From Atherix ibis (Eukaryota; Arthropoda; Insecta; Diptera; Athericidae), in the NCBI GenBank assembly GCA_958298945.1, contig OY282606.1:44839920-44903919 (forward strand): a stretch of 64,000 bases of DNA. The letters run 5' to 3'. Position numbers and translations under genes: made by a program. Below, piece after piece: positions 526-46,689 of the stretch; position 1 is the stretch's first letter, and each line of letters opens with the position of its first letter. The notes under the pieces were generated by a model. It had not been told where the DNA came from, searched no databases, and saw only the letters and a list, made by a program, of their open reading frames with translations.

Positions 526-2385
526 CTAATGTTGCACGCATTTTATATTTGTTTCTAGCAACATTTTCTGAAATTTTTTATCACCTTTTTAAGTTTGAAA
601 GGTTTAAAGGAAATTTTACTAAAACGTTTTTATAATATTTTGATAAATCAGTTTTTATCATTTTTTAATATTTTCTAATTTTTACTGTATGGAAAATTGC
701 AATCAAGCTTTTCCCATCCATGAAAAATGGAAAAATTTAATTTTAAAAAAATTCAGTAATAGCGAACAACAATGAAAACAGTTTTTAATTAATTTGCAGA
801 AGAAGATGGAAAGCGCTTGGTTTTACCTGATTCGATTGTACATGAAATAAATAGAATTGCTTGTTGGGCCCAGCCATTGCGCCTCCGCCACCAGCCTTTC
901 GAATCGTTTTAATTTGAATGAATTGCTCTTCGAATAATTTGTAAGTAAGTAATTTGGCCTCCTTGGCTGGGATCATTGCCTCTTTTTGTATATCCTCTTG
1001 TTCGATGTAATTTTTCGATCGGATAACACGAAATATTCGACTCGCCTTCGTACCAAATTTTTCTGTGATCACGTTTTCGATGCAAGCGAACACAAGCTGT
1101 TCAAAAGCGAATGACATTTGGACAACGTACTGATCACCACCCTGTTGTGAGACTCTGCGCAAAAAATTAAGACTATCCTCAGCTATGAAATATTCAAATT
1201 AATTTTTTTCTTAACAAAAAAATAAGTAGCAACAAAACCGTACCAATCATCGAAACGTATTGATCGAAATATCGTATTAAGTCTCGATTTTTCGATAATT
1301 TATTGATGGTGTGTTTTACTCCGATAATGGAGATTGAATTTGAATTACCCTAAAATGATAGATGTAGTTTTTTTATGGTTAAAACTGGATCTGGCTAAAA
1401 AATAACATCGATTCTTTTTTTCTTCGAATTTACCTTTTGCCATGCGTCTGAGCGTTCGTACATCACTTGAAGAATGTACTTGAAGCACTCACCAGCCGAT
1501 GGGCCAAGTTTTCTTTCAATAACCGATGTCATAACGGTGTCCCGGAAATCCTGATGGAATCTTTCAAAGTTCACGTGGAAGTATGGAGCTTGAATAAGAA
1601 TTTTTTATATATTTTTTTATATACGTTAAAGGTTATTCTTACAATTAGTATTTTGTTGGTTTTGCTCATTTTCCGGCCCGTGAAGTTGTTCGGTTGTAAA
1701 TGTCGGAGGCGCGAAACGTTCATTGGGGTCCGTAACTGATTGTGGTATGGAGCCATGTTCGTTCGCATGCCGTGGCACTTGTATGCGAATCAAATAGTGC
1801 GCCTCAACCATCGTCTGAAAGATATCTCGGTAATTTTCAATTGTGTCTTTACCATCATTGCTAGCAAAACATTTGCGCACAAGATTTAGTCCCGTTTGTG
1901 TCCCCGAACGTAAAAGTTCCTCGGTTAGCAAAGCGCCAATGTCACCGTACAACGTTTTTATCAGGTGAACGTACCTATAATAATTATTTATTTTTTGTAT
2001 TTTAAAAAAAGAAGAATTAAAAATTCATTTTGAAAAAACGCCAAACCTTGGATAACGAAGAATGAACAAAATCGCATCTTTTCTGATGATGTACTCGACC
2101 AGAATCTCGTTGACTTCATTTGTCTCAAAGTACACAAAACGAAATTTGATCAGAATTGCCAATGCGATGGCAACCTAATTTAATTTTGAATGTTTTAGCT
2201 ATATTTTAATTTCTGAATAAAAATTAATTTGAATTTACCTCCGATTTCGGAAGCTGAGTGCACTTGACTATCGACGAAAGTGTTCGTGACACCGAAGAGA
2301 ATAACGTGTCGGCAACTTTTTGTACACTTTCACCAAAATATTGTTTCAATATCACCGAACATAAATTGCTATATGTTATAGACAT
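526..2385 (-). CDS. POLR3C: RNA polymerase III subunit RPC3 (POLR3C), multi-exon, 3' end uncertain
   Basis: Subunit of RNA polymerase III; in the family it forms a subcomplex with RPC6 and RPC7 needed for promoter-specific initiation of tRNA, 5S and U6 genes in the nucleus. Joined exons on the minus strand are 2385-2239, 2174-2047, 1974-1643, 1588-1434, 1349-1244 and 1182-827. All have GT..AG introns (54-84 bases) and keep phase, giving 408 codons. The N-terminus MSITYSNLCSVILKQYFGE matches the first winged helix of the family. FILRYPRYVHLIKTLYGDIG and the exon 4 stretch FERFHQDFRDTV are further family blocks, and AMIPAKEAKLLTYKLFEEQF plus FYLFHV mark the C-terminal winged helix. The ATG is preceded by no other in-frame coding block. 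A seventh exon at 567-526 (acceptor TTTCAG) would add KMLLETNIKCVQH, resembling the next family block, but then meets TAG; the frame stays open beyond it to a TAA at 424-426. Family proteins are about 530 residues, so the C-terminal coiled part is missing or broken here. Confidence 0.9.
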
Positions 2386-9126: not shown

Positions 9127-9282
9127 GATAATGAGTTAAGGTTGTCGGCGCCTGGCTACACATTTTCCACCATAAAAAGGTTTTCTACCAAATGACTTAC
9201 GCAAAGGTATACTGGTATTCTTATACTTTGCACCGACTAAGATTCCTTTAGTTTTTGCACCAATCGGCTTACCAGGTGTATA

Positions 9283-10502
9283 AGCTTAAATCCGCTGTTT
9301 TTTATTCAACAAAACACATGTTTTTTTTTCATAAAAAACCGAAACAAATTTATTCAAAGTACTTGCCCTCGGTAGATACACATTTTTCCCATCTTTCGGG
9401 CAAGTTGTCGATACCACGCCAAAAAATTCCTTCTCTTTCGAGGCAAACCACTCATCAAGCCATTTTCGGACGTCTTCGTAAGAATCGAAGTGCTGCTCAG
9501 CAAGCGCGTGGCCCATCGACGAAAACAGGCGGTGCTCGAAAGGGGCCAGTTCTGGTGAATAAGCAGGGTGGGGTAGCGGCTCCCAGTTGAGTGTCTCCAA
9601 GTAGTTTCGGACCATTTTTGACGTGTGCGATGGTGCGTTGTCGTCGAGGAAAATCAGCTCGTCATTACTTTGTTGATAATCCGTGATTTTTTCACGCAGA
9701 ACACGGTGCTCAGTTGTTGGTGGTAGCGGTGAGCATTGACAGTTTCACCAGGCTTTAACATCTCATAGTAGACGATACCCTGCTGTCTTACAAAACCCAC
9801 AGCATTGTCTTCCGTCTGAAGCAATTTGGTCTTGGGGAAGATGTTGATGGTTGGCCGGGCCCACGATTTCTTGCGTTTAGGATTCTCGATATATATCCAC
9901 TTTTCATCGTCTGTCACAATCCGATGCAGGAACGAATTTCTTTTTTGTCTGGCGATCAAGATTTCGCATGTGTTTTGGCGTTGCTCCATCTGCCTGTCGT
10001 TCAATTCATGCGGCACCCATTTTGCGATCTTTTCGATCTTGCCCATGGCACGCAGACGTATGGAAATGCCTGGTTGAGTAACATCCAATTGCTCCGTGAG
10101 TATTTGTTGCGGTTGGGTATCGTCTTCGTCATAAAGAGCCTGCAATTGATAGTCCTCAACCTTCCTAGGCCGATTTTCACGCTCCGTGTCCCACAAGTCA
10201 ATATTGCCGTCTTTGAACTGACGATATTGCCGTCTTTGAACTGACGGCACGTTTTTTCCGATAAAGCACTGTCACAATAGGCCTCCATAAGCATTCGATG
10301 TGATTTGGCATCCGATTTCTTCAAATTGTAGCAGAAAAGCAGAGCTTCCCGAATATGCTCTTTTTCTGGCACAAAACTAGACATGATTACCAAAGGAAAA
10401 ATGTATGTTGTTGTACGAAATTGCTAACAATGTTCACTGATTAATGTTGACAGATGTCAAACTCATAAAAAAAGTATGGCGTGCCCATGGTAACTTAATA
10501 CG
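9283..10502 (-). mobile_element. mariner family A, copy 1, defective and truncated
   Basis: Minus-strand mariner. The transposase starts MSSFVPEKEHIREALLFCYN at 10384; later blocks are GISIRLRAMGKIEKIAKW, VTDDEKWIYIENPKRKKSW, MLKPGETVNAHRYHQQL and YLETLNWEPLPHPAYSPELA. These follow the D,D34D layout, but the last catalytic position reads APFEH where copy 2 has APSDC, so the third Asp is lost, and several frameshifts are present. A 23-base tandem duplication (10201-10246) replaces the DWFRRF region. The left end keeps TA plus AGCTTAAATCCGCTG; the other end stops at 10502, about 50 bases short of the terminus seen in copies 2 and 3. Confidence 0.9.
10201..10246. repeat. 23-base tandem duplication inside mariner copy 1
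   Basis: Two exact copies of the unit starting ATATTGCCGTC and ending GAACTGACG. The length is not a multiple of three, so it shifts the transposase frame. Confidence 0.9.
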
Positions 10503-15439: not shown

Positions 15440-16560
15440 GAGATCAGGTACACCGATGATATCAACATAGTGTATGATGAAAGACTGTATAAAAGACCTT
15501 TACTAAAATTGAGCCGGATTTACGAAATTTCAATGTATCCGGCTCGCCATCGACGTGTACTGGTCCTGAACAGAATGTATGAAATTTGGCAACGTCGATG
15601 GGATGAGAGTGTGAATGGCAGATGGACGCATATGTTCATGTATGTTTTACATCTGCGTATGGGTTTGAATTCGGTCTGTATCTTGTGTATTTACTCAAGG
15701 GACATGGCAGTATGAATGGGTTCCTGTGTGGTCTAGCTGCGGAGGCTAAATGCCCTTGTGGGGCGGCGGAGGAGAGTGCCAAGCACCTTTTCACTGAGTG
15801 TGGCCTGTACAGGGATTTGCGTGACTTAGGTGCATGTGGAATCGTGGTGAATGATGAGAGTGTAGATGTGAGTGGTGTGTTGGGTGTGAGAGAGAGGTAT
15901 GAATGCCTTAATAGATTTGCCGTGGCACTTAGCGGTGCCTAGGAATTTACAAGATCCCTGACCGTAGCTCAATTAGCGTAGTACAAACCGAAGTACTCTT
16001 AAAACAAAAATTGGTAAAAACGGAAATCGGGATGCCCCTTGGTGTTAAAACATACTGCGCCTGATTATGGTGAGGCCCTTTCGCAGCAACGTGGTGGCTG
16101 TGGTTAATACCCATATCGCGGGTACGATCTCCAGTTCGCGGGAGGGAGATATCCGGAAATATCCATTTTACAATTATCTCGGACACTGTCACTGCTAATG
16201 ACAGTAGAGGTTTAGGTAGTTCTCGCCACCAGCAGGTGGAGTAGTCAGCTTTTAACTGATTACTAACTGTTAACTGCCAGTAATGCTGGTGCACCGATTG
16301 AGCGTAACTCAATCCCTATAGTCGTAAGCGACTCGTAGTTTTACGTTAAAGACAATTAGGCCACGTTAAATAAAACCTTATAACTGTCTGAGGTTAAAGA
16401 CAACAGTCGATACAACTGTTTATTGCCAACAGATGCTATTTCTAAAGAATCATTTCGAACTGCATGAGCACTGGATTGTTGATTAAATTAGGCTCAATAA
16501 AAAACCTTAGCGTAAGATCATAGCATCTGCAATTGTTTGATTCAGCAGTCCTAGACCGGA
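15440..16560 (+). mobile_element. R1-type LINE 3' end: C-terminal ORF remnant plus 3' UTR
   Basis: Around 15550-15650 the text reads RMYEIWQRRWDESVNGRWTH, and after a frame change near 15650 it continues LLKGHGSMNGFLCGLAAEAK. A CCHC knuckle follows (CPC, then AAEESAKHLFTEC) and the frame ends ALSGA-stop at 15942. This is the C-terminus typical of R1-clade ORF2. A short block before it (15450-15480, YTDDINIVYDERLY) looks like the catalytic block of another RT family, so the start is composite. 15943-16560 is the presumed 3' UTR, part of which recurs at 38985-39560. Confidence 0.7.
16020..16380 (+). repeat. interspersed repeat shared with 39215-39540
   Basis: Shared words in the same order include ACGTGGTGGCTGTGGTT, GGGTACGATCT, CACTGCTAATGACAG, CTCGCCACCA and GGAGTAGTCAGCTT. 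Similarity reaches upstream to 15960-16040 against 38995-39080 (AAGTACTCT...GATGCCCC). It follows an R1 ORF here, so it is most simply that element's 3' UTR. Confidence 0.75.
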
Positions 16561-20959: not shown

Positions 20960-22077
20960 TCAAACGCACCTAAATTCATGTAAATCGGCGGATAACAGAA
21001 AAAGTGTGCTAATGTTACAAAACAAAAATGGAACGAAGACCAAATATAAAATTTCGTGTTAAAAAAAAATTCGCTGACACATATGTGCACGAATTGATGG
21101 AAAAAGCTTATGGTGACGATTGTATAAGTCGTACTGAAGTTTATACGTGGTTTACACGATTTGAAAATGGTCGTGAGGATTTAAATGACGACCTAAGGCC
21201 AGGTATCGATTCGAATTTTACTACGAGAATGTTGGCTGAGGAATTATATACGAGTAAAAACACTATTTGAAGAATTTTAATTGAAGATTTGGGTAAAAGA
21301 AAGGTCTGTGCGCGTTTTGTTCCACATGAATTAAATGAAAACCAAAAAATCGCTCGTATGGAGCATTGCAAAGACATTGTTAAAACTGCTGAAAACGATC
21401 CAGACTTTCTTGATTCGATCATAACTGGTGATGAGTCATGGTGCTTTAAATATGACCCTGAAACTAAGCGTCAATCTGGTGAATGGAAGTTTGAAAGGCG
21501 AGCCGAAACCAAAAAATTGCGTTTTCAGAAGTCTCGAATCAAGACAATGTTGATTACTTTTTATGATTCGAAGGGTATTGTCCACAAGGAATTTATTCCA
21601 GAACGTCGAACTGTTAATGGAGAATACTATTTAGGCGTTTTAGATCATTTGTGGAAAAGAATTGGTCGTGTTAGACCTGAATATCCAGCAGGAAAATAGC
21701 TGTTTTTATTGCACGATAATGTGCCACCTCATAAGACCAAAAAAGTGAACTAATTTTTGATGAAAAAACGAATTTGTCTCATCAACAACCCTCCGTATTC
21801 GCCTGATCTATCACCATGTGACTATTTTCTATTTCCAAAACCAAGATGAAAGGGGCATTTTATGATGATATCCCTGCCATTCAAGAAGCCGTAACCGAGG
21901 TGCTGAAGAACATTCCTATAAATGACATAAAAAAATCTATGCATGCGCTGGTTGATCGTTCCAAACGTTGTATTGAGTCTAATGAAACCTATTTTGAATA
22001 AATAATAACTTTCGAAGATAATATAATGTGTATTTTATTCTATATACGGAAAGTTCGGTTATTTTTAGGACACACTG
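20960..22077 (+). mobile_element. mariner of a third lineage, defective
   Basis: The transposase starts at 21028: MERRPNIKFRVKKKFADTYV, then helix-turn-helix text AYGDDCISRTEVYTWFTRFE. A TGA interrupts at 21268. VCARFVPHELNENQKIARME and SIITGDESWCFKYDPETKRQ (first catalytic Asp) follow, and HKEFIPERRTVNGEYYL leads to a TAG at 21697. After that come LLHDNVPPHKTKKV (second Asp) and NNPPYSPDLSPCDYFLFPK (third Asp), so all three Asp codons persist despite two stops and a frameshift. The right end is GTTATTTTTAGGACACACTG before TA at 22078. No matching left terminus is visible; that end abuts the minisatellite. Confidence 0.9.
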
Positions 22078-22117: not shown

Positions 22118-23412
22118 AGCTTAAATCCGCTGTTTGGTCATAGATGGCGTGAGTGAGCGTATTAAGCTACCATGGGTACGCCATACTTCTTTTTTTTAGG
22201 AGTTTGACATCTGTCAATATTAATCAGTGCACAATGTCAGTGATTTCGTACAACAACATACATTTTTCCTTTGGTAATCATGTCTAGTTTTGTGCCAAAA
22301 AAGAGCATATTCGGGAAGTTCTGCTTTTCTGCTACAATTTGAAGAAATCGGCTGCCAAATCACATCGAATGCTTATGGAGGCCTATAGTGACAGTGCTTT
22401 ATCGGATAGAACGTGCCGAGATTGGTTTCGTCGGTTCAAACACGGCAATATTGACTTGTGGGACAAGGAGCGTGAAAATCGGCCTAGGAAGGTTGAGGAC
22501 TATCAATTGCAGGCTCTTTATGACGAAGACGATACCCAACCGCAAGAAATGCTCACGGAGCAATTGGATGTTACTCAACCAGGCATTTCCATGCGTCTGC
22601 GTGCCATGGCCAAGATCGAAAAGATCGGAAAATGGGTGCCGCATGAATTGAACGATAGGCAGATGGAGCGACGCCAAAACACATGCGAAATCTTGCTCGC
22701 CAGAGAAAGAAGAAAGTCGTTCCTGTATCGGATTTTGACAGGCGATGAACAGTGGATATATTTCGAGAATCCGAAACGCATGAAATCGTGGGTTGATCCC
22801 GGCCAACCATAAACATCTTCCCCAATACCAAATCGCTTCGGACGGAAGACGATAACCTGCTGTGGGATCAGTCTACTATGAGATGTTGAAACCTGGTGAA
22901 ATTGTTAATGCCCACCGCTAGCATCAACAACTGATCAAATTGAACCGTGCTCTGCGTGCATGGATTATGCACGCAGAGCACGGTGCAATTTGATCAGGTG
23001 TTGATGCTAGCGGTGGGCATTAACAGGACGGATTATCAACAAAGACATGACAAGCTGATTTTCCTCCACGACAACGCACCTTCGCACACGTCAAAAATGG
23101 TCCGAAACTACTTGGAGACCCTCAACTCGGAGGTTCTACTTCACTCCGCTTATTCGCCAGACCTGGCCCCTTCCGACTGTCACCTGCTTTCGTCGATGGG
23201 CCACGCGCTCGCTGAGCAGTACTTCGATTCTTACGAAGACGTCCGAAAATGGCTGTGAAAGAGAAGGAATTTTTTTGGCATGGTATCCACAAATTGCCCG
23301 AGAGATGGGAAAAATTTGTAACTAGCGAGGGCAAGTACTTTGAATAAATTTGTTTTTGCTTTCTATGAAAAAAACATGTGTTTTTTTGACTAAAAAACAG
23401 CGCATTTAAGCT
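22118..23412 (+). mobile_element. mariner family A, copy 2, full length but broken
   Basis: Flanked by TA; both ends carry AGCTTAAATCCGCTG or its one-mismatch complement. The transposase ATG is at 22280 (MSSFVPKK), but one base is missing against copies 1 and 3, shifting the frame. It then reads AAKSHRMLMEAYSDSALSDR, TCRDWFRRFKHGNIDLWDKE, ISMRLRAMAKIEKIGKWVPH and LTGDEQWIYFENPKRMKSW. Past the foldback at 22904-23024 comes DYQQRHDKLIFLHDNAPSHT, then SAYSPDLAPSDCHLLSSMGH. All three catalytic Asp codons remain. A TGA follows VRKWL at 23256. Confidence 0.93.
22904..23024. repeat. 58-base-arm inverted repeat within mariner copy 2
   Basis: Left arm 22904-22961, right arm 22967-23024, loop GGATT. 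Only two mismatches between the arms. The left arm matches transposase sequence in copies 1 and 3; the right arm is its inverted copy, and about 25 bases of normal coding sequence are displaced. Confidence 0.9.
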
Positions 23413-24529
23413 TATACACATGGTTTTTACTCCAAACTCTCTTTTTGCTTTGTTATATTTTGGGTTGCCAGAAAATTAGTTTATATTTTTATCAAATTGT
23501 TTATTTACTGTATCATCCTACTCGTAGCATTAGTGTATCATCACATTGCTTTCAATAGTGGGAATAAAAATGTAGTTGAATTATGTCAAAATTAATTTCA
23601 AAATTAAAAAAATCATACAATAATCCTAAAACATTTACAGACTTAATAGACTTTTAGCACTTAGCCATCCAATTTTCTTATTAACTTCGTCAAATTTTCA
23701 TTACACAAACTAAACTAAATATTCATTAATATATTTTTTGTTTTACTATAATATTATCATATAATAATTAGAAGCGGATATGAAATTTATTTTGAAAAGG
23801 GCTAACATATGTTAACGTTTTGAAATTATGGGAAAATAAATGTGTTCCGCAGTAAATTTAAACCAAATTAAAATTGTTTACTCTTTGTAGACTTTTATTA
23901 TTTGTGATAATACTCGTATAATCATAATCGAATGTTTGTAAATAAGTTTTGTAATTGTTATGTTCGATGGTAACATTGCCTTTATATTTTGAATAAATGT
24001 AATTTTATGCTGTGACATCCTCAATTATGCATAGTACTATAATGAATTGTATTTAAATTGAAATTCGTTTAATTATTCATTTATCAGTTATTTGCATTTT
24101 CAAATTATAATTTTTTTATCAACTATACAGCAACGAGTTGGAGTAAGCCAGTTGAAAATTATTTATGGGTAAAATAGATTTTATTTGAATACAGTATTAA
24201 TTTTGCACATTGATTTTCATTTGTAATCATATTGATAAATATGATAATAATTTAATTATTATGGAGAATTGGAAAAGTTTTCAAATGATATGGACAATTT
24301 AAGAATTTGTGAATTTTTTTAAATTCATCTATAAAAATGATTACTTTAACTCATTATAAAGTACACGAATTTTTGTGTAGAGTTCTTCTAAATATACTTA
24401 TCTACGCTAATGATATATGGAATATAGAACATTTTTCTGGTCTTTTGTTATCGAAAATAGCACTAATATGCAGTTTTTATCTGAATTTTTCTTTATCTCT
24501 TTATTGAAATGTATCACCATTAATATCAA
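23413..24529. other. no feature recognised
   Basis: AT-rich sequence between transposon relics, without recognisable coding or RNA features. Confidence 0.45.
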
Positions 24530-25845: not shown

Positions 25846-27470
25846 TTTTTTTTTTTTTTTTTTTTTTTCCGTTTAGATTAATGAGGTACAGGGGGAAACC
25901 TTCAAAAGGTACTCGTCTGGAAGTTTTTCCTGCCAGGTGAGTTATGCGGGATTTTTACCTCGCTAAAACCTAACCTGCACCTCTGATCTTGCTCCCGGAA
26001 TGATGGTTCCCCGGCGGCACTCTTTGTAAATACTACTTCGCCGGGGCGTTCTTGTTTGATGCTACTGCTGTCCCGATGTTATGACGCCTCGCGGCCTATT
26101 CTTCGTACGTTGTGTGGAGATCCTTGAGAATGGATTCCGCGTACTCTGCAATTCTGTTCCAAGCCGATTGGCTCTTCAGCATGCACTCCACTATATTTTC
26201 TGGACTGATGGGACGCTCCAGATTTCTCTCCAGCTCTACCCGCGTCTCCTCATAGAGGGGGCACTGGAAGAACACGTGTTCTGCGTCTTCGATCACATCG
26301 CGGCAATGATGACAGTTTGGGGAGTCAGTTCTCTTGAATCTGTGCAAGTATGCCCGAAAGCATCCATGCCCAGTCAAGAGTTGGGTGATGTAATACCCGA
26401 CTTCCCCGTGCAGGCGAGTGACCCATTTGGTAACATGTGGGATCAGCCGATGAGTCCACCGACCCTTCGTCGAGTTGTCCCATCTCTCTTGCCAGAGGCG
26501 AAGACTCTCGGGTCTCTTCTCTTCACAGAGGACCTTTCGCCGCTCTTCCTTCTTCCTACGATGTTGGCGTTCCCGCTCTCCTGCCAGAATGTCGATGGGT
26601 GGGCATGATGCCACGATGTTGACCGCATCGTGCGGTACCGTTCGGTATGCTGACGCTACTCTGATCGCTGAGAGTCGCTGGACTGATGTCATTGTCTTGC
26701 GGTATGTTGTAAGCTCTAGCGACTTCGCCCACACTGGTGCTCCGTATAGCAGGACGGAGGTAACCACAGTTGCCAGTAGTCGCCTTCGGATTTGCCTGGG
26801 GCCTCCAATATTGGGCATTATCCGCGAAAGTGCGCCCTGTACTGCTGATGCCTTCCTGCTGACGCTGGAGATGTGCTACTTGTAGTTGAGTCTGGCATCC
26901 AGGACCACTCCTAGATACCGGATGTAGGGTAGCGACCGGATGTCGTGATCGCCTACTCTTATGGTGATGGTCTCCATTTTCTTCCGGCTACTCACAAGGA
27001 GTGCCTCAGTCTTATGTTCCGCCAAAGACAGGTCTGCCGATGTCATCCACTGTCTTATGCTCTGGATGGTGGTGGAGAATGCGGCTTCCAGTTCCTCTAG
27101 GTGTTTGGCTACCAGGACAACTGCTACGTCGTCCGCGAAAGCCACGAGTGTTGTGTTCGTCGGTAATTGCAGATGGAGTAGGCCGTCGTACATGACGTTC
27201 CACAAGAGTGGCCCCAGGACAGAGCCCTGAGGTACCCCTCCCGTGACCTCATACTCTGCTAGTCTATCCTCGGTCTCGTATTGCAGTAGTCGATCACTGA
27301 AATATGATCTGACCATCCTCCGTAGGTAGTAAGGCACCCCCATGTTCTCAAGAGCCTCCAAGATTCGATCCCAGCGGGCCGAGTTAAACGCGTTCTTGAT
27401 GTCCAGGGTGACAATGAGGCAATACTTTTTAGAACCGCCTTTCCATCTCTTTCCTGAAATGGCTTCCTTT
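25846..27470 (-). mobile_element. 5'-truncated R1-type LINE, nested insertion with target duplication
   Basis: The minus-strand element ends in a 25-base poly-A (plus-strand T run 25844-25868). It is flanked by the 17-base duplication GCGACCGGGTCAGTCTT at 25829-25845 and 27471-27487; the last two bases are ambiguous with the tail. It lies inside another retrotransposon, whose reading frame resumes after the duplication. The 3' UTR is about 25869-26095. Few lesions are present, so this is one of the younger-looking insertions in the window. Confidence 0.9.
26096..27470 (-). pseudogene. R1-type reverse transcriptase ORF, single TAG
   Basis: From the 5' truncation the frame reads SGKRWKGGSKKYCLIVTLDI, where LDIKNAFNSARW holds the first catalytic Asp of the palm. 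GGVPQGSVLGPLLWN and FADDVAVVLVAKH (catalytic DD) follow. A TAG at about 26878 falls after LDARLNYK, and the same frame continues at once (HISSVSRKASAVQGALSRI, MPNIGGPRQIRRRLLATVV). It then runs through QERWDNSTKGRWTHRLIPHV and a CCHC knuckle (CHHCRDVIEDAEHVFFQC) to HTTYEE-stop. Apart from 5' truncation, one nonsense codon is the only break, probably a C-to-T change at a CAG. No endonuclease domain is present. Confidence 0.88.
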
Positions 27471-27487
27471 GCGACCGGGTCAGTCTT

Positions 27488-27965
27488 GATAAAGGCCTCT
27501 CGTACAGCTCTTTCTGATCGACACACATGCTAAAAAGCTGGACAAACTTAATGAGGTTAGCCCCCTTCATATTTACCAACGTCCAAATAGCTTTTTCCAG
27601 GACCAGGCACGAAAGCACGTCTCCTACTCTGAGACTATTATGGATGTTAAATGGCATTGAAAATGATTCGGCTGCTTTCACTTTTCCTATCATACTATCC
27701 ATAGTCAGCCTAGTCAGTCTAATCAATTATTATGGAATGCCGAACTCATTCATGGATGTGCAGAGTTTTACCCTCACTATGCTATCATAAGCGGTTTTAA
27801 AGTCAATGAACAAATGGTGGATCTGTTGACTATATTCCAACAGTTTTTTGATCGACTGCCACAGAGAGAAGATCTGATCTGTTGCTGATTTCCCTAAAAT
27901 GAAGGCTCTTTTATATGTGGCAATAATTTTTTGGGTGAATGGGGCTATCCTGCCTTTTGGGTGAA
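27488..27965 (-). mobile_element. RTE-type LINE fragment hosting the R1 insertion
   Basis: The minus strand reads SATDQIFSLWQSIKKLLEYS, QIHHLFIDFKTAYDS (first palm Asp), IRLTRLTMDSMIGKVKAAES, LRVGDVLSCL and LEKAIWTLVNMKG, then RSERAVREAFIK. The frame continues across the R1 insertion as TDPVAENIGC at 25843-25810, as expected if the two parts were once contiguous. The catalytic YADD block is degraded (LFSMCVDQ). Confidence 0.75.
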
Positions 27966-35900: not shown

Positions 35901-36529
35901 TGAAATAGAAGATCCCAGTTCTATTTTGATATTTGTTAGATATAATAAGTATGGTAAAAAAAAAAAACAAAAATATATATTGCAATTAAATATTTATTGT
36001 TAATAAAATTTTTGAAAAATATCTATTTTATGGGACAGCAAAATTATCCTGAGGCTAGTTAGATTAGGAAATTGTGTGAAGGTCTCAAACCATACAATTT
36101 TACAGCTGGCATTACCAAAAATACTATTGATTTTACCTAAAACAGACCTTACTTCATCAGTTAATAAATAAATGGAGACTCAATTAATATCCTGGTGCAG
36201 ATCATTCTTATATAAGTGAAGTGATTTATATTATCATATTTAAAATTTTTTTTAATAACAAATCCTTAAAATTTTCAATGTACACTTTTTCTAGTTTTTA
36301 TTTTAAATATGCTCGCATTTAAGGCATAATGAATATTTATCGTACGAGTGGAAGGTATTAGAAGGATTGGCGCAAAAGGAGCATTGTAGTTGAAAGTCCT
36401 TATAACTTTTTTGTTTTAATTATTTTTTAAAAGAAATTGATTTCAGTATTTTATATAGCAGATTTGGAGAAATTTAAATGCAAGAATACTTAATGGAATA
36501 ATGAACCAAAATCGTTGAAATATATTTTG
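32991..36529. other. no gene recognised; contains one hairpin
   Basis: AT-rich. An 87-codon frame at 33611-33874 spans the hairpin at 33718-33772 and has no recognised family. The rest shows only A/T runs. Confidence 0.4.
33718..33772. repeat. imperfect inverted repeat, 24-base arms
   Basis: Arms 33718-33741 and 33749-33772 pair with two mismatches around a 7-base loop; the core is CGAGAATATAAAGTA against TACTTTGTATTCTCG. Confidence 0.85.
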
Positions 36530-37250: not shown

Positions 37251-37780
37251 ATAGTGTATATTAATAAGCTAAGAAGTATTTTTTAATTAAAAAACTACAT
37301 TCATAATAAAATTGATGTCATAACACCTAAAATTTTGCAATAGGTTAGGGAAAATGTTTTGGTGGGAGCAGTAAATAGCCACCAATTGCGAGATATTACT
37401 AATCCAAAAATATTTCATATATTATTTATTTATAAAAGTAATAATTATAGCTTAATTATAGATTTTATAATCTGGGAAAACCGATTATTGTAGAGGGCAG
37501 TTCTACAATCGTATTATATGGTTTAAGTAAAAATATTCAACTAAGCAGAACATGCAAAAATAGGTCCTAGAGAGAACTGATAAGTATGGGGTTTATAGTA
37601 AAAAAAACTTGAAAGAATGGAGTGGAACTAGTCAATTCACTTGAACACTGTTTATGGCAAATATGATAAATTAAGGAAAGGCAGGAGACATTACGAAGGT
37701 GTTCCAATTAGTTCATTGAATCCGATATGATTTTATCACCAATAAGTCTTATCGCATGATTTTTGCTCCCGTCTATTTCT

Positions 37781-37895
37781 TAAGACTTATAGATATTGGC
37801 TAAATCAGTAGAACTAGAGAATTTCCAGACACCTAAGAACTCCCGACACCTAAGACTTATAGATATTAGCTAAATCAGTAGAACTAGAGAATTTC
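37781..37895. repeat. 45-base direct duplication, offset 70
   Basis: A 45-base unit starting TAAGACTTATAGATATTGGC at 37781-37825 recurs at 37851-37895 with one mismatch. Confidence 0.85.
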
Positions 37896-37988
37896 GTAAA
37901 CTGCTTCAAGAAAGCTAAAAGTTTTGCTACATTAAGATAATCAATATTAAATATGTTGTCATTTCAGCGGAAGAAGTTATTAATAAAC

Positions 37989-38069
37989 ATACCAAGAATT
38001 AAAAGTCCTATTGGATTCTCACTTTTTATATTATACCAAGAATTGAAAGTCCTATGGGATTCTCACTTA
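37989..38069. repeat. about 37-base direct duplication, offset 44
   Basis: The unit ATACCAAGAATT(A/G)AAAGTCCTAT through GGATTCTCACTT occurs at 37989-38026 and 38033-38069. It lies immediately before the small-RNA concatemer. Confidence 0.85.
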
Positions 38070-38070
38070 T

Positions 38071-38128
38071 TTTTATCTGGCCTTCACCCAGAAGGCCCGG
38101 GTGCATTTACCGGTATGAGAAATTTTTT
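38071..38128 (+). other. GC-rich leader ending in T run; possible 3' end of another polymerase III RNA
   Basis: It contains a perfect 6-base stem (GGCCTT at 38079-38084 with AAGGCC at 38092-38097), then CCCGGGTGCATTTACCGGTA, and ends in ATTTTTT. It is joined directly to the 5'-cut U6 in the same way the 5S segment is joined to the next U6. I cannot name the RNA. Confidence 0.3.
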
Positions 38129-38207
38129 ATTGGAACGATTCAGAGAAGATTAGCATGGCCCCTGCACAAGGATGACACGCAAAATCGTGAAGTGTTCCAC
38201 ATTTTTT
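38129..38207 (+). ncRNA. U6 snRNA pseudogene 1, 5'-truncated
   Basis: Matches U6 from ATTGGAACGAT to the 3' end GTTCCACATTTTTT, with AGATTAGCATGGCCCCTG and AAGGATGACACGCAAAATCG. The first ~32 nucleotides, including the 5' stem-loop, are missing, and ACAGAGA reads TCAGAGA. The T run is followed at once by 5S sequence. Confidence 0.95.
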
Positions 38208-38328
38208 GCATCCATATCGTCCTGGATCCACCGGCTCTCGTCCGATCACCGAAGTTAAGCAGGACTGGGCGTGGTTAGTACTTAGATGTGTGACCGTTTG
38301 GAAACATCGCGTGACGCAGGTTATTTTT
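38208..38328 (+). rRNA. 5S rRNA pseudogene, near full length
   Basis: Reads TCCATATCGTCCTGGATCCA, TCTCGTCCGATCACCGAAGT, TAAGCAGGACTGGGCGTGG, TTAGTACTTAGATG and GTGACCGTTTGGAAACATCG, ending GCAGGTTATTTTT. This spans the A box and C box of the internal promoter. A few bases at the 5' end and several stem positions differ from normal 5S, so it is unlikely to be functional. Confidence 0.93.
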
Positions 38329-38408
38329 AATTGGAACGATATAGAGAAGATTAGCATGGCCTCTGCTGCAAGGATGACACGCAAAATCGTGAAGCGTTCC
38401 ACATTTTT
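38329..38408 (+). ncRNA. U6 snRNA pseudogene 2, 5'-truncated
   Basis: Begins AATTGGAACGATATAGAG, within a base or two of the point where copy 1 begins, and ends GAAGCGTTCCACATTTTT. ACAGAGA reads ATAGAGA, and the CCCCTGCGC segment reads CCTCTGCTGC. The next base starts 7SL sequence. Confidence 0.95.
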
Positions 38409-38699
38409 AACTGGGTGGTTGGCATCACCTGTAATCCGGCTTCTCGGAGGTTGGAGTTCGGAACGATTTGAGATCGGGGTCATTGTGTGTTGTACTAGGG
38501 CATGTTGACGGAGCGTATATTGCCATCAATATGGGCGTCATGGAGGAGTCCGCGGCATCCAGGTTAGCTAAGGAGGGATAAACCGGGCCAGAGTGAAAAC
38601 CAGCAGCCAAAATGTCTCCTGTGGCGAGCAGTAGTGGGAAAACACTCCGGAGTGCACTACCGGCGTCAGCCGGACCAATAAAGTTGAACCGAATTCTTT
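38409..38699 (+). ncRNA. 7SL (SRP) RNA copy, near full length
   Basis: About 291 nucleotides; the fly gene is close to 300. The Alu-domain start reads CTGGGTGGTTGGCATCACC and TGTAATCCGGCTTCTCGGAG, followed by the central GCCATCAATATGGGCGTC, GGTTAGCTAAGGAGGGATAA and ACCGGGCCAG. The S-domain GAAAACCAGCAGCC and GAGCAGTAGTGGG, which in SRP RNA lie in the SRP54-binding helix, are present. It ends GTCAGCCGGACCAATAAAG and GAATTCTTT. It is sandwiched between U6 copies with no promoter of its own, so it is most likely a retrocopy. Confidence 0.92.
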
Positions 38700-38789
38700 G
38701 TTGTTGCTTCGGCAGAACATATACTAAAATTGAAACGATACAGAGAATATTAGCATGGCCCCTGCGCAAGGATGACACACAAAATCGTG
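38700..38789 (+). ncRNA. U6 snRNA pseudogene 3, complete 5' end, 3'-truncated
   Basis: Begins GTTGTTGCTTCGGCAGAACA and TATACTAAAATTG, keeps ACAGAGA and AGCATGGCCCCTGCGCAAGG, and stops after CAAAATCGTG, about 17 bases short of the U6 3' end. Non-U6 sequence CATAAAAAGG follows. Confidence 0.95.
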
Positions 38790-38984
38790 GCATAAAAAGG
38801 TAAAATAGCTAACAAGGGGCAAAAGTAGACACGTGGCTGGCAAATGTGATATTAAAATTCATAGTAAACCTTTAATATCACATAGTAAACCCTATGGGGT
38901 GGTAGTCATGGACAAAAATGATGTGGAAAGAAAAGGAGGAAATGGAGAAGGAACGGAAGGAGAAAAAGGTCAGGATATTACAAG

Positions 38985-39560
38985 GTAGCTGACCACTGCT
39001 CACAGAGCAGAGTACAGACCTAAAGTACTCTAATAAAAACATAGGTACCACGGGAACCGAGACGCCCCACAGAACGAAATTCAAAATATTAAAGAGATCT
39101 TTCAGGATTATGGCGTCGAAGCTCTTCACAGCTTTCATGCATAATGCTTTTATAGTATTTGCTTGTATATGCTAATGTGAGTGGAGTTGTACCCGTTTGT
39201 GTCTATAAAAAAAATGAACTATTGTAGTTCTGTGCTCGATTATTGGTGAGGTGCTTCGGCATTTACGTGGTGGCTGTGGTTGAAACCTATATCGGGGGTA
39301 CGATCTGCGGCTCGCAGGTGGGAGATAACTGGCAATTATCTCGGGCGCTGCCACTGCTAATGACAGCAGAGATTTAGATAGTCCTCGCCACCAACAGTTG
39401 GAGTAGTCAGCTTGTAAATGATTGCTGACTGCTAAAAAATTTTATGGTAGTGCGCTGATTGGGCGTATCTCAATCCTTTTGGTTGATGAAACTCGTGTCG
39501 TAGATAGCTAACGAGTGGTATGGCACGTTAAATCAAATAATAAACTGTAGGGACAGCAGA
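38985..39560 (+). mobile_element. LINE 3' UTR-like repeat downstream of the small-RNA concatemer
   Basis: Homologous in order to 15950-16400: AAGTACTCT, GACGCCCC, ACGTGGTGGCTGTGG, GGGGTACGATCT, ATTATCTCGG, CCACTGCTAATGACAG, CTCGCCACCA, GGAGTAGTCAGCTT and GGCACGTTAAAT. No ORF remains before it. Same strand as the concatemer, and separated from it by about 195 bases of unidentified sequence holding a purine-rich stretch at 38920-38970. Confidence 0.7.
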
Positions 39561-41745
39561 CATTACTACGTCTTTGTATTATTATACCAAATGGTATTGT
39601 AATATTACTTATCAATACTAAGAATCTATCGGCTTTTAATTAACATGGAATTATTTTGGAAATCCAGTAACTTCAGTACAAATTTTAATGAAAATAACCA
39701 TTAAGAAGGGGTAAAACTAGTTAATTGATAATAAAATATACCCAATTTTAATTTTTTTTTCTGTTATATTCAATTTAGTAGAAAATGATAATAAAAAAAG
39801 TAGACATATTCATTTTAAAAAATTCTATTCTATTTTTAATATTAGTTGGGCCCAACCAACATCTGATAGCCATGAAATTGTATAGATTTTTAATAAAACA
39901 TAAATAAAAATAAATTATAAAAGAATATAGAATATCAGTTAAAGACCAAAACAGATTTGTATAATTAAAATAAGGAAAATGATACCAAATAAATTTGACA
40001 ATTTAGTATATATATTGGAGAATTTAGTATAATTGAAGTATTTATTTGACGATGTTCCCAAAATACTTTTTAGAAATTTGGATTATGAACATTTCATATC
40101 TACAAATGATAGAAAAAAAAATTATAAATTATCATAATTTATCAGATATTTCGAACCAAAAGAAAAGCAAAGATTTCTGAAAAGTAAAATTTTCAATTTA
40201 TTTCGACAATAATTTAATGGGTCCACCGAGAAGAGAGTTGATATTATTCAAACAGTTTCTATTAAAATAACAAAAGATAATATTTTGGTAAAGGAGAGAT
40301 AAAAGTCTCAAAGTATATGGAGCTGGTATTTCATTTAATTGAGATAACGAAGCTAGAGAAATTATGGCAAATTAACTTTCACCAATCAAATTATATTTTG
40401 GAGAAAGTCTGTGAAATTTTTCAATTTCTTATTTTATTATAATTTTATAAAAGAAATCTCTTCTGAATTGAATATTAAATGCAAACAATATTAAATAATG
40501 ATGGATTCCATTGACAAAAGTAAAAACAAATCAACATATATATATAAAATCTTAGATTGTTGAATTATTTGCAAAGTTTGTCTAAAATGACTGGTATATT
40601 CAATGGCTTACAGCAGAGGACAATTTTAATTAAAGGTTTAAATCAATTTAAATAATTTTGGTTCTATTTATTTGTTTACATAATTTTCTATTTCATACTC
40701 TAAATGAGTTATTTATGAAGAAATCATTAATAAAGTATTATATGAACAATATTCTCTGAAGGCTTTTCAAGGTATTCGTAAAGATGAATGTACTTAAGAA
40801 TTTCAATGGTAAGGAGAATGACATTCATTTGAAATTCTATTGATTCCTTTTTTTCTTCAAACATATAATTTGTACTTATTTCATTATTTTATATCATATT
40901 TGAGTTATACACCTTGTATAGTAGTTATTTCCATATTGTAAAAGAACAAGCTCAAAAGAGAATAACAAAAAAAAAGGACTCGATTATAAGGAATATGCCA
41001 AGAATTTGAGTTCATTAAATACGTAAAGTACAAAATTTTAGTAGAGCGTAAAAATAATAGAGTCAGTTTTGTTGAGGAATTCCTTTATTTGTAATGGAAT
41101 GCCGTAGTGAATTGTACTCGTTCCATTAAAATAAAATATTTATCTTAGAGTATCTTAGGGCATATTATTTGTTTTTTTTTTTCTTTCAGTTTTATGATTT
41201 CTTCGAATATTTATAATGAGAATAATATATAACAATATATTTTTGTAAATAAAATTTCCTTTAAAATAATAATTAATTAAATGTAGTTAAATATATACTC
41301 TTAATTATTAAGTAAGAATTTTCCTTTGTTATCATAATAGTTATTGATTTATATAAAAATTATATATAATTCAGAGTATAGATGAGTATACAGATTGTTT
41401 GAAATATTCACATTTGGAAGTGTATAATTCTTTCTGATGAGGAATTTTGAATTCAGTTAAAAAAAAAACTTTTATTCGATAAAAGGATATTTTAATTATT
41501 TTAAAAAATTTATAAAATACCATTAATTGCATTAATTAGAATACTGAGTTGTAAGAAAATAAAAAAATCCGGAATTACTTCAAAGATACATTTTATGAAA
41601 GAAAACTACCTCAACGACTATTTGTCAATTTCACAAGAATCCTTGTATCTGAATCAAAATTATATTGTAGGAAAAGTTCTTGATACACAGGGTTGGCGAT
41701 CTATTAGGTTTATTTTTAAACTGAAAGAAAACATACATTTGTATA
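39561..41745. other. no feature recognised
   Basis: Very AT-rich sequence up to the left end of mariner copy 3. No coding or RNA signal was seen. Confidence 0.45.
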
Positions 41746-42986
41746 AGCAAATAAATCCGCTCTTTGGTCATAGATGGCGTGAGTGAGCGTATTAAGCTAC
41801 CATGGGCACGCCATACTTTTTTTATGAGTTTGACATCTGTCAACATTAATCAGTGCACATTCTGTCAACATTAATCAGTGTAGTTTTGTACCAGAAAAAG
41901 AGCATATTCGGGAACTTTTTTATGAGTTTGACATCTGTCAACATTAATCAGTGTAGTTTTGTACCAGAAAAAGAGCATATTCGGGAAGCTCTGCTTTTCT
42001 GCTTCAATTTGAAGTAATCGACTGCCGAATCGCATCGAATGCTTATGGGTGCCTATGGTGACAGTATTTTATCGGAAACAACGTGCCGAGATTGGTTTCG
42101 TCGGTTCGAAGACGGAAATTTTGACTTGTGGGACAAGAAGCGTGAAAATCGGCCTAGGAAGGTTGAGGACCATCAATTGCAGGCTCTTGTGGACGAAAAC
42201 GATACCCAATCGTAAAAAAATGTCGCGGAGCAATTGGGTGTTACTCAACCAGCCATTTCCATGGGTCTGTGTGCCATGGGGAAGATTGAAAAGATCAGAA
42301 AATGGGTGCCGGATGAATTGACTGATAGGCAGATGAAGCGACGCCAAAACACATGCGAAATCTTGCTCGCCAGACAAAAAAGAAATTCGTTCCTTCATTG
42401 GATTGTGATAGGCAATGAAAAGTGGATATATTTCGAGAATCCTAAACGCAAGAAATCGTGGGTTGATCCCGGCCAGCCATCAACATCTTCCCCAAGACCA
42501 AATCGCTTCGGACGGAAGACGATGCTGTGCGTTTGGTGGGATCAGTCTACTATAAGATGTTGAAACCTGGTGAAACTGTCAATGCCCACCACTACCACCA
42601 ACAACTGATCAAATTGCATCGTGCTCTGCGTGTAAAAAGTATGGATTATCAACAAAGACATGACACACGTCAAAAGTGGTCCGAAACTACTTGGAGACAC
42701 TCAACTGGGAGGTGCTACCCCACCCTGATTATTCGCCAGACCAGGCGCCTTCCGACTACCACCGGTTTTCGTCGATGGGCCACGCGCTTACTGAGCAATA
42801 AGAATTTGTGGATTCTTACGAAGACGTCCGAAAATGGCTTGATTTTTTTGGCGTGGTATCCACAAATTGCCCAAGAGATAGGAAAAATCTGTAGCTAGCA
42901 AGGGAAAGTACTTTGAATAAATTTGTTTTTGCTTTCTATGAAAAAAAAACATGTGCTTTTTGACTAAAAAACAGCGGATTTAAGCT
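41746..42986 (+). mobile_element. mariner family A, copy 3, near full length, defective
   Basis: The left end is mutated (AGCAAATAAATCCGCTCTTT). The right end keeps CAGCGGATTTAAGCT before TA. The 5' UTR and first codons are duplicated at an offset of 73 bases (41822-41987), and no ATG stands in front of the VPEKEHIREALLFC frame. Downstream come TTCRDWFRRFEDGN-like, ISMGLCAMGKIEKIRKWVPD, VIGNEKWIYFENPKRKKSWV and YKMLKPGETVNAHHYHQQLI. The first catalytic Asp has become Asn (GNEK), and the HDNAPSHT block with the second Asp is deleted near 42660. Confidence 0.92.
41822..41987. repeat. 73-base direct duplication inside mariner copy 3
   Basis: TATGAGTTTGACATCTGTCA and AGTTTTGTACCAGAAAAAGA recur at an offset of 73; the first unit also has an extra short repeat of CTGTCAACATTAATCAGTG. 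Confidence 0.88.
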
Positions 42987-43689
42987 TATATATCTGGCAA
43001 GCAAACATCAAAAATATTTATTGAAAATAAAAGTAGAATTAATTGTAATTATACTACGATCATAAGAGCATTTGGCGACTTTATGGTGCTTTTAGGTTGG
43101 CATTGCCAGCTTCCCTAATGAAATTAGCCGATGGTAATTTGGAGAGAAAAGTTACACATTGTTATATTTTGTGGAGCAAATTAACATTATAAAGAAGGTT
43201 AAAAAGAGGGTTTGAACAAATAATTGTTGGTTCTAGGATCTCCATAATGGAAAGAGTTCTATTCAAATACAAATTTTTGGTTAATTCATTTAAAATATAG
43301 GGAATGGTGAGTTGAACGCCACAGGATAAAGAATGTTACAGAAGAGAGTGCGGTATGATTCTATTTGAAAATTAATCCTTCCATTGTGGAACTCCCAGAC
43401 CCAATAACTTCTCTCCCAAGTCCTTTCATTAATTTTCTAATAGAAAATATGTTTCATTAAATTTAACTTCTTCTAATTGCACCCTCCAACTAACCAGTTG
43501 CATTAAGTAAGCGGGCAATGCCAAGCCACACGTAACAAAAAATCGCTTAATGGCCTCAAAATCCTAGTGCTACAGAAAGCCTCTGACTCTTGTTTTAAAG
43601 ACCTTACGATGTTATATTTGCTTATTCCTATTAGTAGCATAGGCATAAAAAAATAGAGCATCGTTAACCCTTTACCCATGAGTAGGCTA
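42987..43689. other. no feature recognised
   Basis: AT-rich, with no coding similarity found; it leads into the degenerate tandem array. Confidence 0.4.
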
Positions 43690-44530
43690 ACCATTTGGTT
43701 TCAATGTCATCGATGTCAATACGTCGAGCCTAGGCCACTATATATGACCCCAGATCACTGACCTTACTTGCGAGACTAGGTCATAATCACCTTATGCCTA
43801 CTATTAGGCTTATTTAAAATTGTACCAAGACTATTGACTCTACTTTGAGATTAAGTCATTGATCCTAATATGAGACTTGGTCACTAGTAGGATATTCGTA
43901 AATATTAGTCAAGATCTCTGACCCCTCGAATGAGACTGAGTTCATGTTTGGATTTGCTAGTACTTGTAATTATTAGATTGACTACTTGATCATGGGTTGC
44001 GTACAGATGGTCGAACGTAAGGTCATTATTCACTCTTACTAAAATAGGTAGGCCAATCGACTTATTTTTTCTGAGAAATATAATGCCTGAGAAAGGTCAG
44101 TAAAAGACTAGTCTTATGAGACTAGGTAAATAGTCAAAGTTGCTTACAAATAAGCCAACGTAGGATGATTATCTGATCATACTAGAAGACCTAACATTCG
44201 ACCTGCTTGCAAATGTACCTGCTTTAATATTAGTCAAGATCACTGACCCTTTTAACTAGGGCAAAGTTTGGGTTACCAATACGAGTATATGTGTTTAATA
44301 TATTGACTATTGTCATAATAATAGGTCTATGGCTGAGTTGCTTATAAATGATCCAACATGAGGTCATTATTTGCCCTACTAACGCAAGCAAAGCTTTATT
44401 TCAAGAGAACCAATGTCATTGACCTTAATATGAGACTAGATCACTAGCTGGATTTGCTAATATACGAGATAAGATTACTAAACTTTTGCAGAAAGCCTAA
44501 TACCTAAATTTGTTTATATATTAGCCAAGA
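43690..44530. repeat. long degenerate tandem array
   Basis: Words such as GATCACTGACC, TGAGACTAGGTCA, AATATTAGTCAAGATC, GAGGTCATTATT and GGATTTGCTAATA recur about every 50-110 bases, with much divergence. No ORF. It looks like an old satellite or minisatellite block. Confidence 0.55.
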
Positions 44531-44597
44531 TTATTTTCTTTTTACACGATATTGAGCCAATTATTACTGCCTTTTGGATTCGGCCAATAATTGGGTT

Positions 44598-44726
44598 TGG
44601 TCATTTAATTTTTAATTAAATTGGCTAAAATATGATAATTTTAAGAAATTATCATATTTTAGCCAATTTAATTTTAAAATTGGTCATTTAAAATTAAATT
44701 GGCTAAAATATGATAATTTTAAGAAA
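44598..44726. repeat. 28-base perfect inverted repeat plus a third direct copy
   Basis: Arms 44614-44641 and 44646-44673 are perfect complements around the 4-base loop TAAG. A third copy, in the orientation of the left arm, lies at 44691-44726, preceded like the first by GGTCATTTAA. The unit contains TTGGCTAAAATATGATAAT. Confidence 0.92.
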
Positions 44727-46689
44727 ACATAAAAAATATTTTAAATTAAAACAAAAATATTTTAAAAAAATTGTGAGGAAATAATAATTATAAAATATTT
44801 TGTCACATGAACAAAATGTACTCAGAATCAATTCGCACATATCAAAAGGGGTTTTTACCCAAATCCCTGCTTTTATTTTTTTTTGTAATATCATTTATTT
44901 TTCCCAAAAATACTAAATAATATCTACTTATCGTATTCTTTAATATTTATAAATTAGAAAACTGATTTCAATTTAGGCTAAGGCAAAAAATGTCAGGCAC
45001 GTTCTTGGTATCAATTTGAGAAAGTAGAAAATGAGCTTGTGTTGTTCTAAAAGGAGTTTACTTAGCAATTTTTATATAGAAATTTATAAAGCCACAAATA
45101 AGTTGTGAGAAAATGTACTATTGTTAATAATAAATTTCTGACCACGATAAAATTTGCAGTATAACCAAATTGAATGTTGAATTTAGTGTTTGGTTGTATA
45201 CGACGATGACCAAAAGAATTTGTACACAGAAAATAACATAAATTCAGCAGATAAACATTGTGTTTAGGTTAAAAATTTATGTTGGAAATCATGTGGGTAT
45301 TCTTCTTACTTTGCTGTAAACATATAAGTATAAGTGTCTGACTATTTCTTATGTTGATTTTCACATCTCTCACGATAGAATATTTGCACATGATTTTAGG
45401 TGATACTCTACTACTTGGTACACGGAACTACGAAAGATACGTGGGAGAGGACTCCAATTCGACTAACAGCTTTTCAGTTTAGTTCAAGCAAGTACAACCC
45501 TTGACAGTATCCGGTTTCGATAGATACAACGAATACCAGTACCACTATCAGTACTACTAATAACAAATCGATATTCAATATATTTTTGATAGAGCATTTT
45601 ATATCGAATACTAAACGCTACCGAGACTAATAAATTAAACCAGGTTGAAAGCTTTCGTTTGTATTGAAAATTATTCATTTTCAAGGTATTTCGAATTATG
45701 GTATTCTAAACTGCAATTACTTTAATGAATAATATTTAAGTATAGTTTTTGGTAAAAGATTATTATAGATAATTTTTAATAATGCCTTAGTTTTTCGGGG
45801 CATCCTCGATATTAGCTATATTCAAAATATTTCTCGATAGCTTTATAATTTCCACATAAGAAAATAATTATAATAATAATTATCATATATCAATTAGCTT
45901 GAAATATTTAATTATAAAATAACTTAATTTAATATATATATATATATATTATTGGATATAAATGGTTTTAATTTGATGGAGAATCTGATTTGTAGAAATA
46001 TCCTTTTTCTGATATCTTTAAAGTCAATAAATTAAACTTCTTACGAATCTTTTTTCTTATCTATAATTCAATATATTATATTGCAGATATTCTCTTATTG
46101 GAATTTGGAAAAATAAATCAGATAAAGCAAAAATCCTTGATTTATTGAAGATAAACGAATTTTTTGAACTGTAGTATCCCTTAATTAATTTTATCCCTTA
46201 GAAAGTATTTAATATTTTATTTAAATAAAACAAGAAAAATAAGATACATTTTCAATGTTTAAATTCTTATTAAATTTTTTAGGTATAATTTTACACTCTT
46301 TAAATAAGAGAAAATTTTTTTAATAATTTTATTGATTTCTTAATAAAAGAAAAATAAATGTTATCACATTATAGGATAAAATGTAAGAGATTAAATGTAA
46401 AGCGTTTATTAATATATTTATTAAAAATTTATTTTTAAATAAATTTAATCATGAAATTCATCCCTTATTTATTTATTTATTTATTTTTTTGGTTGGCTAT
46501 TAAATACAAAAATTGTGTATTATTTAGCACTTAAATTTGTTGGTTAAGTCAATTTTTATGAATGAAACAAAAAAAATTAAGAAATGATTAATTTACTAAA
46601 ACAAAATAAAAATTTAAAAAGTTACAAAGAATAACTTATAAATACTTCGCAGAAATTTTATCAATTTTTATTTGGAACTAAAAACACCT
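44727..46689. other. no gene recognised
   Basis: AT-rich, with a (TA)n tract near 45935-45950 and a (TTTA)n tract near 46466-46490. Nothing coding was identified. Confidence 0.45.

Follow-up and report, generated by a model that had tools for sequence, protein, structure and literature searches.

How far can a reverse transcriptase travel from one RNA to the next in the course of a single genomic insertion? The question is raised by a locus of the fly Atherix ibis (contig OY282606.1 of assembly GCA_958298945.1), in which copies of several small RNAs stand end to end within the 64-kb stretch of DNA analyzed here (the window, whose own coordinates are used below). By sequence comparison, the full chain is pre-tRNA-Glu/U6/5S/U6/7SL/U6/LINE-related element, that is, seven units joined seamlessly on one strand, the last of them related to a long interspersed nuclear element (LINE). 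The locus is probably one reverse-transcribed insert, built by serial template jumping during target-primed reverse transcription. That all of it happened at once, that every joint came from a jump and none from ligation, and the kind of enzyme at work are what we infer from the arguments below.

Architecture of the chain

An earlier note, made by a model from the sequence alone, had described a spacer-free, head-to-tail U6-5S-U6-7SL-U6 array at 38129..38789 and had proposed a covariance-model search to fix its boundaries. The search returned five Rfam matches at gathering thresholds in the whole window, all at 38.1-38.8 kb and all on the plus strand, and these are the five units that had been named. 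Their bit scores from left to right (U6 91.7, 5S 83.2, U6 83.6, signal recognition particle (SRP) RNA 146.8, U6 86.8) are so high that chance resemblance is excluded. Comparison with the host genome's own U6, 5S, 7SL and transfer RNA (tRNA) sequences, by which the unit borders were set, bears out the same order; for U6, of which the searches gave no intact gene, the reference was the consensus held by most of its copies in the genome. The five units indeed lie in the span first proposed, but the chain reaches beyond it on both sides, to about 38074 on the left and to 39544 on the right (Table 1). Between the RNA units there are 0 spacer bases and all share the plus orientation; the T at 38207 can be assigned to either U6-1 or 5S, and U6-3 and the element overlap by 2 nucleotides (nt), TG.

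The copies are close to their presumptive sources. The 5S unit is identical to one gene of the genome's tandem 5S array at 106 of 115 positions (38207-38321), and the 7SL unit, aligned over 290 bases to the 7SL gene L079, agrees with it at 275; the alignment contains four indels, of 5, 3, 1 and 1 nt. Both copies appear to lack about 3 nt at the 5′ end, the true end of 5S being deduced from stem pairing and that of 7SL lying where we take it to be from Drosophila 7SL. The tandem 5S array itself (G000:C1:111421984-111531824) has a commonest spacing of 655 bases, with at least 47 copies. Oligo-U 3′ ends stand at five of the six joints. The expectation that each left-hand unit ends at its exact 3′ end holds for the left partners that carry such ends and fails for U6-3, whose 3′ end is cut at nt 90.

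Unit 1 was recognized differently. Even with E values up to 10 allowed over 37960-38130, every Rfam match fell far short of its gathering score and the unit was missed, and ARAGORN found no tRNA in the window, as expected for a half tRNA. The tRNA-Glu query pattern occurs exactly at six places in the genome and with 1-3 mismatches at five more, and ARAGORN calls tRNA-Glu (ttc) at ten fetched loci of that pattern. The window part differs from it at 6 of 46 positions, while the next best place in the 64 kb, on either strand, has 22 mismatches. The trailer of the tRNA-Glu gene L072 is ATTTTTTTTT; those of the other tRNA-Glu genes differ. Since the trailer ATTTTTT is retained, the template was probably an unprocessed RNA polymerase III (pol III) transcript. 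The 5′ part of the chain is thus not a full-length cellular RNA, as its leftmost unit starts at about tRNA nt 26. Within this part, four of the six mismatches fall at 38103-38109, in or next to the T loop, and include A58 to T (T loop plus one base against the remainder, Fisher p = 0.005, in a comparison picked post hoc). A misread 1-methyladenosine would yield such changes, and the cluster may reflect that misreading or chance.

All six RNA units, as copies of U6, 5S, 7SL and tRNA, derive from pol III products, and one might ask whether the locus is simply a pol III gene cluster or a member of a composite short interspersed element (SINE) family. The first of these, a normal tandem cluster with promoters between its units, had been named in the earlier note as what would overturn its reading. 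Nothing of the kind is seen: the units leave no room for promoters between them, and U6-1, U6-2 and the tRNA all lack their 5′ portions. As for the second, the genome search (26 scored of 2450 candidates) found 7SL at full length twice, in the gene and in the chain copy, along with three weak fragments near the gene, which makes a repeated family unlikely; within those scored candidates there are none of the many dispersed composite copies of a SINE family. We give this explanation almost no weight.

Table 1. Units of the chain, features of its left flank and other features of the window
Feature	Position	Strand	Description
Unit 1	38074..38128	+	3′ part of pre-tRNA-Glu, starting at linear nt ~25-27 (of 72); trailer ATTTTTT uncut
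Unit 1, subdivision	38076-38121, 38122-38128	+	tRNA body, trailer
Unit 2, U6-1	38129..38206	+	U6 small nuclear RNA (snRNA) nt 30-107; 3 mismatches in 78 against majority U6
Unit 3, 5S ribosomal RNA	38207..38328	+	nearly full length, first ~3 nt absent; T run TTATTTTT
Unit 4, U6-2	38329..38408	+	U6 snRNA nt 29-107; 2 mismatches and 1 inserted base
Unit 5, 7SL (SRP) RNA	38409..38699	+	full length within about 3 nt at 5′ end; ends TCTTT
Unit 6, U6-3	38700..38789	+	U6 snRNA nt 1-90, 5′ end intact, 3′ end absent; 4 mismatches in 90
Unit 7, LINE-related element	38788..39544	+	5′-truncated copy ending at CAAATAATAAA; putative first template copied
Dispersed repeat, left flank	37586..38006		breaks off at ~38006; probably outside the chain
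44-nt tandem duplication, left flank	37989..38076	+	ends in CACTTATTTTT; abuts unit 1
Exon of RNA polymerase III subunit	785-1198	-	RPC82/POLR3C type (Pfam POLR3C_WHD, E 1.4e-26)
LINE reverse transcriptase frames	26096-27529	-	Pfam RVT_1, E 7.7e-24
Repeat family, three copies	9267-10502, 22122-23424, 41752-43002		79-87% identical; presumably mariner-like
Transposase match	21271-21699		separate Pfam Transposase_1 match

The right end: a LINE-related element

What follows U6-3 on the right is a dispersed element with at least 51 matches in the genome (40 scored of 3008 first-look candidates), the full-length ones measuring 0.65-0.8 kb. Its relatives match the window from 38788 and extend upstream into a common leader, which the window copy does not have. 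The furthest-reaching relatives (L040, L042 and L049) terminate at the same base, CAAATAATAAA at 39544, and diverge at once thereafter; many others have already diverged at about 39476. From the absent leader and the shared 3′ stop it follows that the window copy is cut short on its 5′ side, where it meets U6, and keeps its full 3′ end. The chain accordingly closes, like chimeras whose 5′-truncated 3′ part comes mostly from a LINE, with a 5′-truncated piece, 38788-39544, that is LINE-related and not a full LINE.

The kinship is traced through the window itself, where the 3′ part of the element is 75.6% identical to 16055-16315 over 262 aligned positions. Upstream of that matching end, the frame 15607-15942 contains what we take, by eye, to be a LINE C-terminal cysteine motif; Pfam gives no match for this frame, so that LINE kinship and clade stand without profile support. 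A shared 5′ end is recognizable in 21 of the 29 element relatives that were fetched, and together with the 0.65-0.8 kb matches this is why the element is taken to be a short, non-autonomous relative of a LINE, as it may well be. A LINE reverse transcriptase copying from right to left had been proposed for the array before any LINE had been seen beside it, and the proposal gains support from a 5′-truncated, same-strand element that ends the chain.

U6 capture elsewhere in the genome

The same proposal is supported from outside the window. A search of the genome for U6 gave at least 41 matches (48 scored of 57280 first-look candidates), of which three belong to the window. The others are spread over 37 loci (L001-L007 and L009-L038), each of which was fetched, and since L002 equals L003 over 3.1 kb they amount to 36 independent loci. 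U6 is fused to a LINE in 13 of the 36, the LINE match starting no more than 18 nt from the U6 3′ end; the limit of 18 nt was chosen after the data had been seen, and the remaining 23 loci were left unclassified. The start points within the LINEs differ among the 13 fusions and are internal, so that the LINEs are 5′-truncated; ten fusions involve one family and three another. At L018 and L030 the joint to the LINE is internal to U6, at nt 89 and nt 76. Among 17 frames downstream of U6 compared with Pfam, 11 match reverse transcriptase or RNase H (E up to 0.01) and six match nothing, with some of the tested frames several hundred bases away from U6. Eight frames exceed the Pfam cut-off, in L001, L002 (twice), L004, L011, L015, L020 and L031, and at L004 U6 directly precedes an open reverse transcriptase frame of 499 amino acids. 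Capture of U6 by LINEs thus recurs in this genome, and the long chain is exceptional among the loci examined.

An intact, stand-alone canonical U6 gene was not found with patterns for the first 47 nt and the last 59 nt of U6, allowing up to 3 mismatches. The first-47-nt pattern matched at eight places and the last-59-nt pattern at five, all of them known copies and several LINE-fused or in the chain. The real genes may be unassembled or different in sequence. The idea of a split U6 gene was dropped, as the two patterns matched already known copies only. At L029:2001-2119, on the minus strand, two truncated U6 pieces lie head to tail and are followed by a LINE. This locus was considered and rejected as a second chain: read by eye, both pieces share four variants, so that duplication, or one template used twice, is as likely as a chain.

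Did the units of the chain arrive together? Across the six RNA units 39 of 698 sites are changed, and the loads are not detectably different (chi-square p = 0.15, a test of low power; p = 0.52 for the five units without the tRNA part). No change from the majority sequence is common to the three U6 units, which therefore do not stem from recent DNA duplication. The changes bear equally on the idea of an assembly or library artefact. Cloned contemporary RNA would not be expected to carry, as each RNA unit here does, changes of its own, and the chain is embedded in a 122-Mb contig with dispersed repeats on both sides; an artefact is barely credible.

A model of serial template jumping

In the reading that we prefer, target-primed reverse transcription would start at the 3′ end of the LINE-related element RNA, at 39544, and would copy it as far as 38788. 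The enzyme would then land inside a U6 RNA (nt 89-90), with the 2-nt overlap at the joint, and copy it to the first nucleotide, from where successive jumps would carry it to the oligo-U 3′ ends of 7SL, U6, 5S, U6 and pre-tRNA-Glu. In total the model calls for seven templates and six jumps, five of them onto an oligo-U 3′ end. The uncut pre-tRNA trailer is compatible with a nuclear pool of oligo-U-ended RNAs.

Enzymes of the non-LTR (long terminal repeat) class jump between templates in vitro (PMC8857657, PMC10830420). The R2 enzyme is reported to depend for its jumps on a short overhang, added without a template, that fits the RNA to be copied next; when nucleotides are balanced the added bases are mostly A, and the overhang so formed, 3 nt or longer, does not support jumping (PMC8857657). 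A tentative idea that we regard as possible but doubtful is an A/U relay, in which each complementary DNA (cDNA), once completed, would be extended by a few A residues that base-pair with the oligo-U terminus of the RNA to follow. Such a relay would pass the enzyme along nearby nuclear pol III transcripts with oligo-U ends, such as pre-tRNA, U6, 5S and 7SL. The nonproductive nature of longer overhangs speaks against the relay, unless oligo-U ends alter that requirement.

What weighs against a single insertion

Several observations count against the reading of the locus as one insert made by jumping.

First, no target-site duplication was found beside the chain edges by exact or gapped searches. 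Short direct repeats around the whole insert, which the earlier note had suggested looking for, were thus sought and none was accepted. Exact candidates of at least 8 nt stand beside 12 of the 21 fetched element copies with a recognizable 5′ end, whereas chance alone would give an exact 8-mer in about an eighth of the copies; six of the 12 are 11-13 nt long, and at L040 a 13-nt duplication can be read by eye. Because sister copies so often have such a duplication, its absence from the chain is a real gap. It would be explained if the target had been deleted, if the duplication had decayed, or if the insert began further to the left. A 12/13 repeat (37682-37694 against 39554-39566), equalled in 13 of 500 shuffles, was not accepted: the dispersed repeat runs through its left copy without a break, and it starts 9 nt beyond the element end. 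The AT-rich TATTATACCAA, at 38029 and 39580, was rejected as well, starting 35 nt beyond that end, and a match at 36032 was dismissed as chance (45 of 500 shuffles as good). With no duplication to prove a single insertion, separate retrocopies might have landed against each other in stepwise nested insertions, as has been proposed for tripartite chimeras (PMC4476161). Such a history would however have to join the units without tails, duplications or additional bases and to place all seven on one strand, and the mutation loads of the RNA units, low power notwithstanding, are not detectably different; we regard it as highly improbable.

Second, the left edge is unclear, being blurred by the T-ending 44-nt duplication against unit 1. 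The dispersed repeat to its left has at least 48 matches (40 candidates scored), 70-88% identical, none of which apart from the window itself passes 38006, past which position the relatives continue differently. An empty site was sought through those relatives that extend beyond this position, and they gave no match to the right flank (searched window 38001-46000); the sole long match, L083 at 41752-42452, is not adjacent to the chain. The T-ending duplication was itself considered as a further RNA unit to the left of the tRNA part, and no identity was found for it. A second local duplication, of 45 nt, lies at 37781-37895, also left of the chain.

Third, divergence is higher in the tRNA part than in the other units (6/46, p = 0.036). 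Fourth, comparable loci are wanting: a second small RNA family was found beside none of the 37 other U6 loci at the Rfam gathering threshold, in keeping with the earlier judgment that a chain of five with 5S and 7SL in it would be unusual, and no small RNA was found near 20 of the 29 fetched element relatives. On these two counts such long-chain events are rare.

Finally, several units begin inside their RNAs (U6 nt 29/30, tRNA nt ~26, 5S and 7SL about 3 nt in), and such starts resemble cleaved fragments with a 5′-OH. They recall the alternative in which some or all of the RNAs are first ligated end to end, for example by a ligase of the RtcB type that uses the cyclic phosphate of U6 ends, with reverse transcription of the product afterwards. 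At the 7SL/U6-3 joint, however, U6 begins at nt 1 (the other joints being slightly or clearly internal), and the first nucleotide of U6, normally capped, would be an end to which a ligase could not join 7SL. The 3′ ends of 7SL and 5S are, moreover, ordinary hydroxyl ends, which also counts against ligation, and the model needs six joints. RtcB ligation is given as one route in PMC13174262. The ligation alternative raised alongside the first description of the array is thus disfavored at the 7SL/U6-3 joint and conceivable at the others, where units start inside their RNA; as an account of the locus it is unlikely. U6-1 (38129) and U6-2 (38329) begin at near-identical internal points, nt 30 and nt 29, and this shared start region looks like a preferred stop or the end of an RNA fragment.

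Relation to known chimeras

The chain resembles several known systems and departs from each. Like it, the U6/LINE chimeric retrogenes of vertebrates, which involve several LINE clades, have U6 5′ of a 5′-truncated LINE in the same orientation (PMC4476161, PMC13174262). LINE-1 partners besides U6 include tRNA, 28S, 7SL, Y and 7SK (PMC13174262), and 7SL, tRNA and 5S are reported among them (PMC4476161, PMC13174262). In the sections compared, each vertebrate LINE has one RNA partner, whereas the chain has six RNA units; internal initiation was, according to PMC4476161, never observed in U6/L1 chimeras, whereas U6-3 (nt 90), L018 and L030 are joined internally. The tripartite chimeras of Magnaporthe, human and mouse (PMC2104539) share with the chain serial jumps from LINE RNA to transcripts, direct fusion and a single strand. 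They have three parts as against seven here, and those of Magnaporthe and mouse have target-site duplications, of which none was found here. Template jumping in vitro likewise yields continuous cDNA across unlinked RNAs, and concatemers; those are test-tube reactions, while the chain is fixed in a genome and made up of natural small RNAs. Tailless retropseudogenes (PMC5322556) also draw on U6, 5S and unprocessed tRNA templates and show internal truncation, but they come from single RNAs primed internally, whereas here a LINE-related element follows U6-3. Literature searches, mostly at the level of abstracts, turned up no chimera of more than three parts, the tripartite ones being the longest (PMC2104539, PMC4476161). 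The chain is therefore unusual in its length and mix of partners, and the mechanism is one already proposed for shorter cases.

Meaning for retrotransposition

The locus offers a natural record of apparently six successive template jumps, against two in the tripartite cases, and so would show how far a reverse transcriptase of this kind can hop in a living genome. It also makes testable a debated point, whether the parts of LINE chimeras are brought together by a jumping enzyme or by ligation of the RNAs beforehand, for which its joints give defined predictions: landings on oligo-U ends, an intact first nucleotide of U6, and a pre-tRNA that keeps its trailer. The host genome lends itself well to such work, given that U6 is fused to a LINE in 13 of the 36 other independent U6 loci examined. 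More broadly, serial jumping is a plausible source of composite SINEs and, if the A/U relay were true, would be a general route to them.
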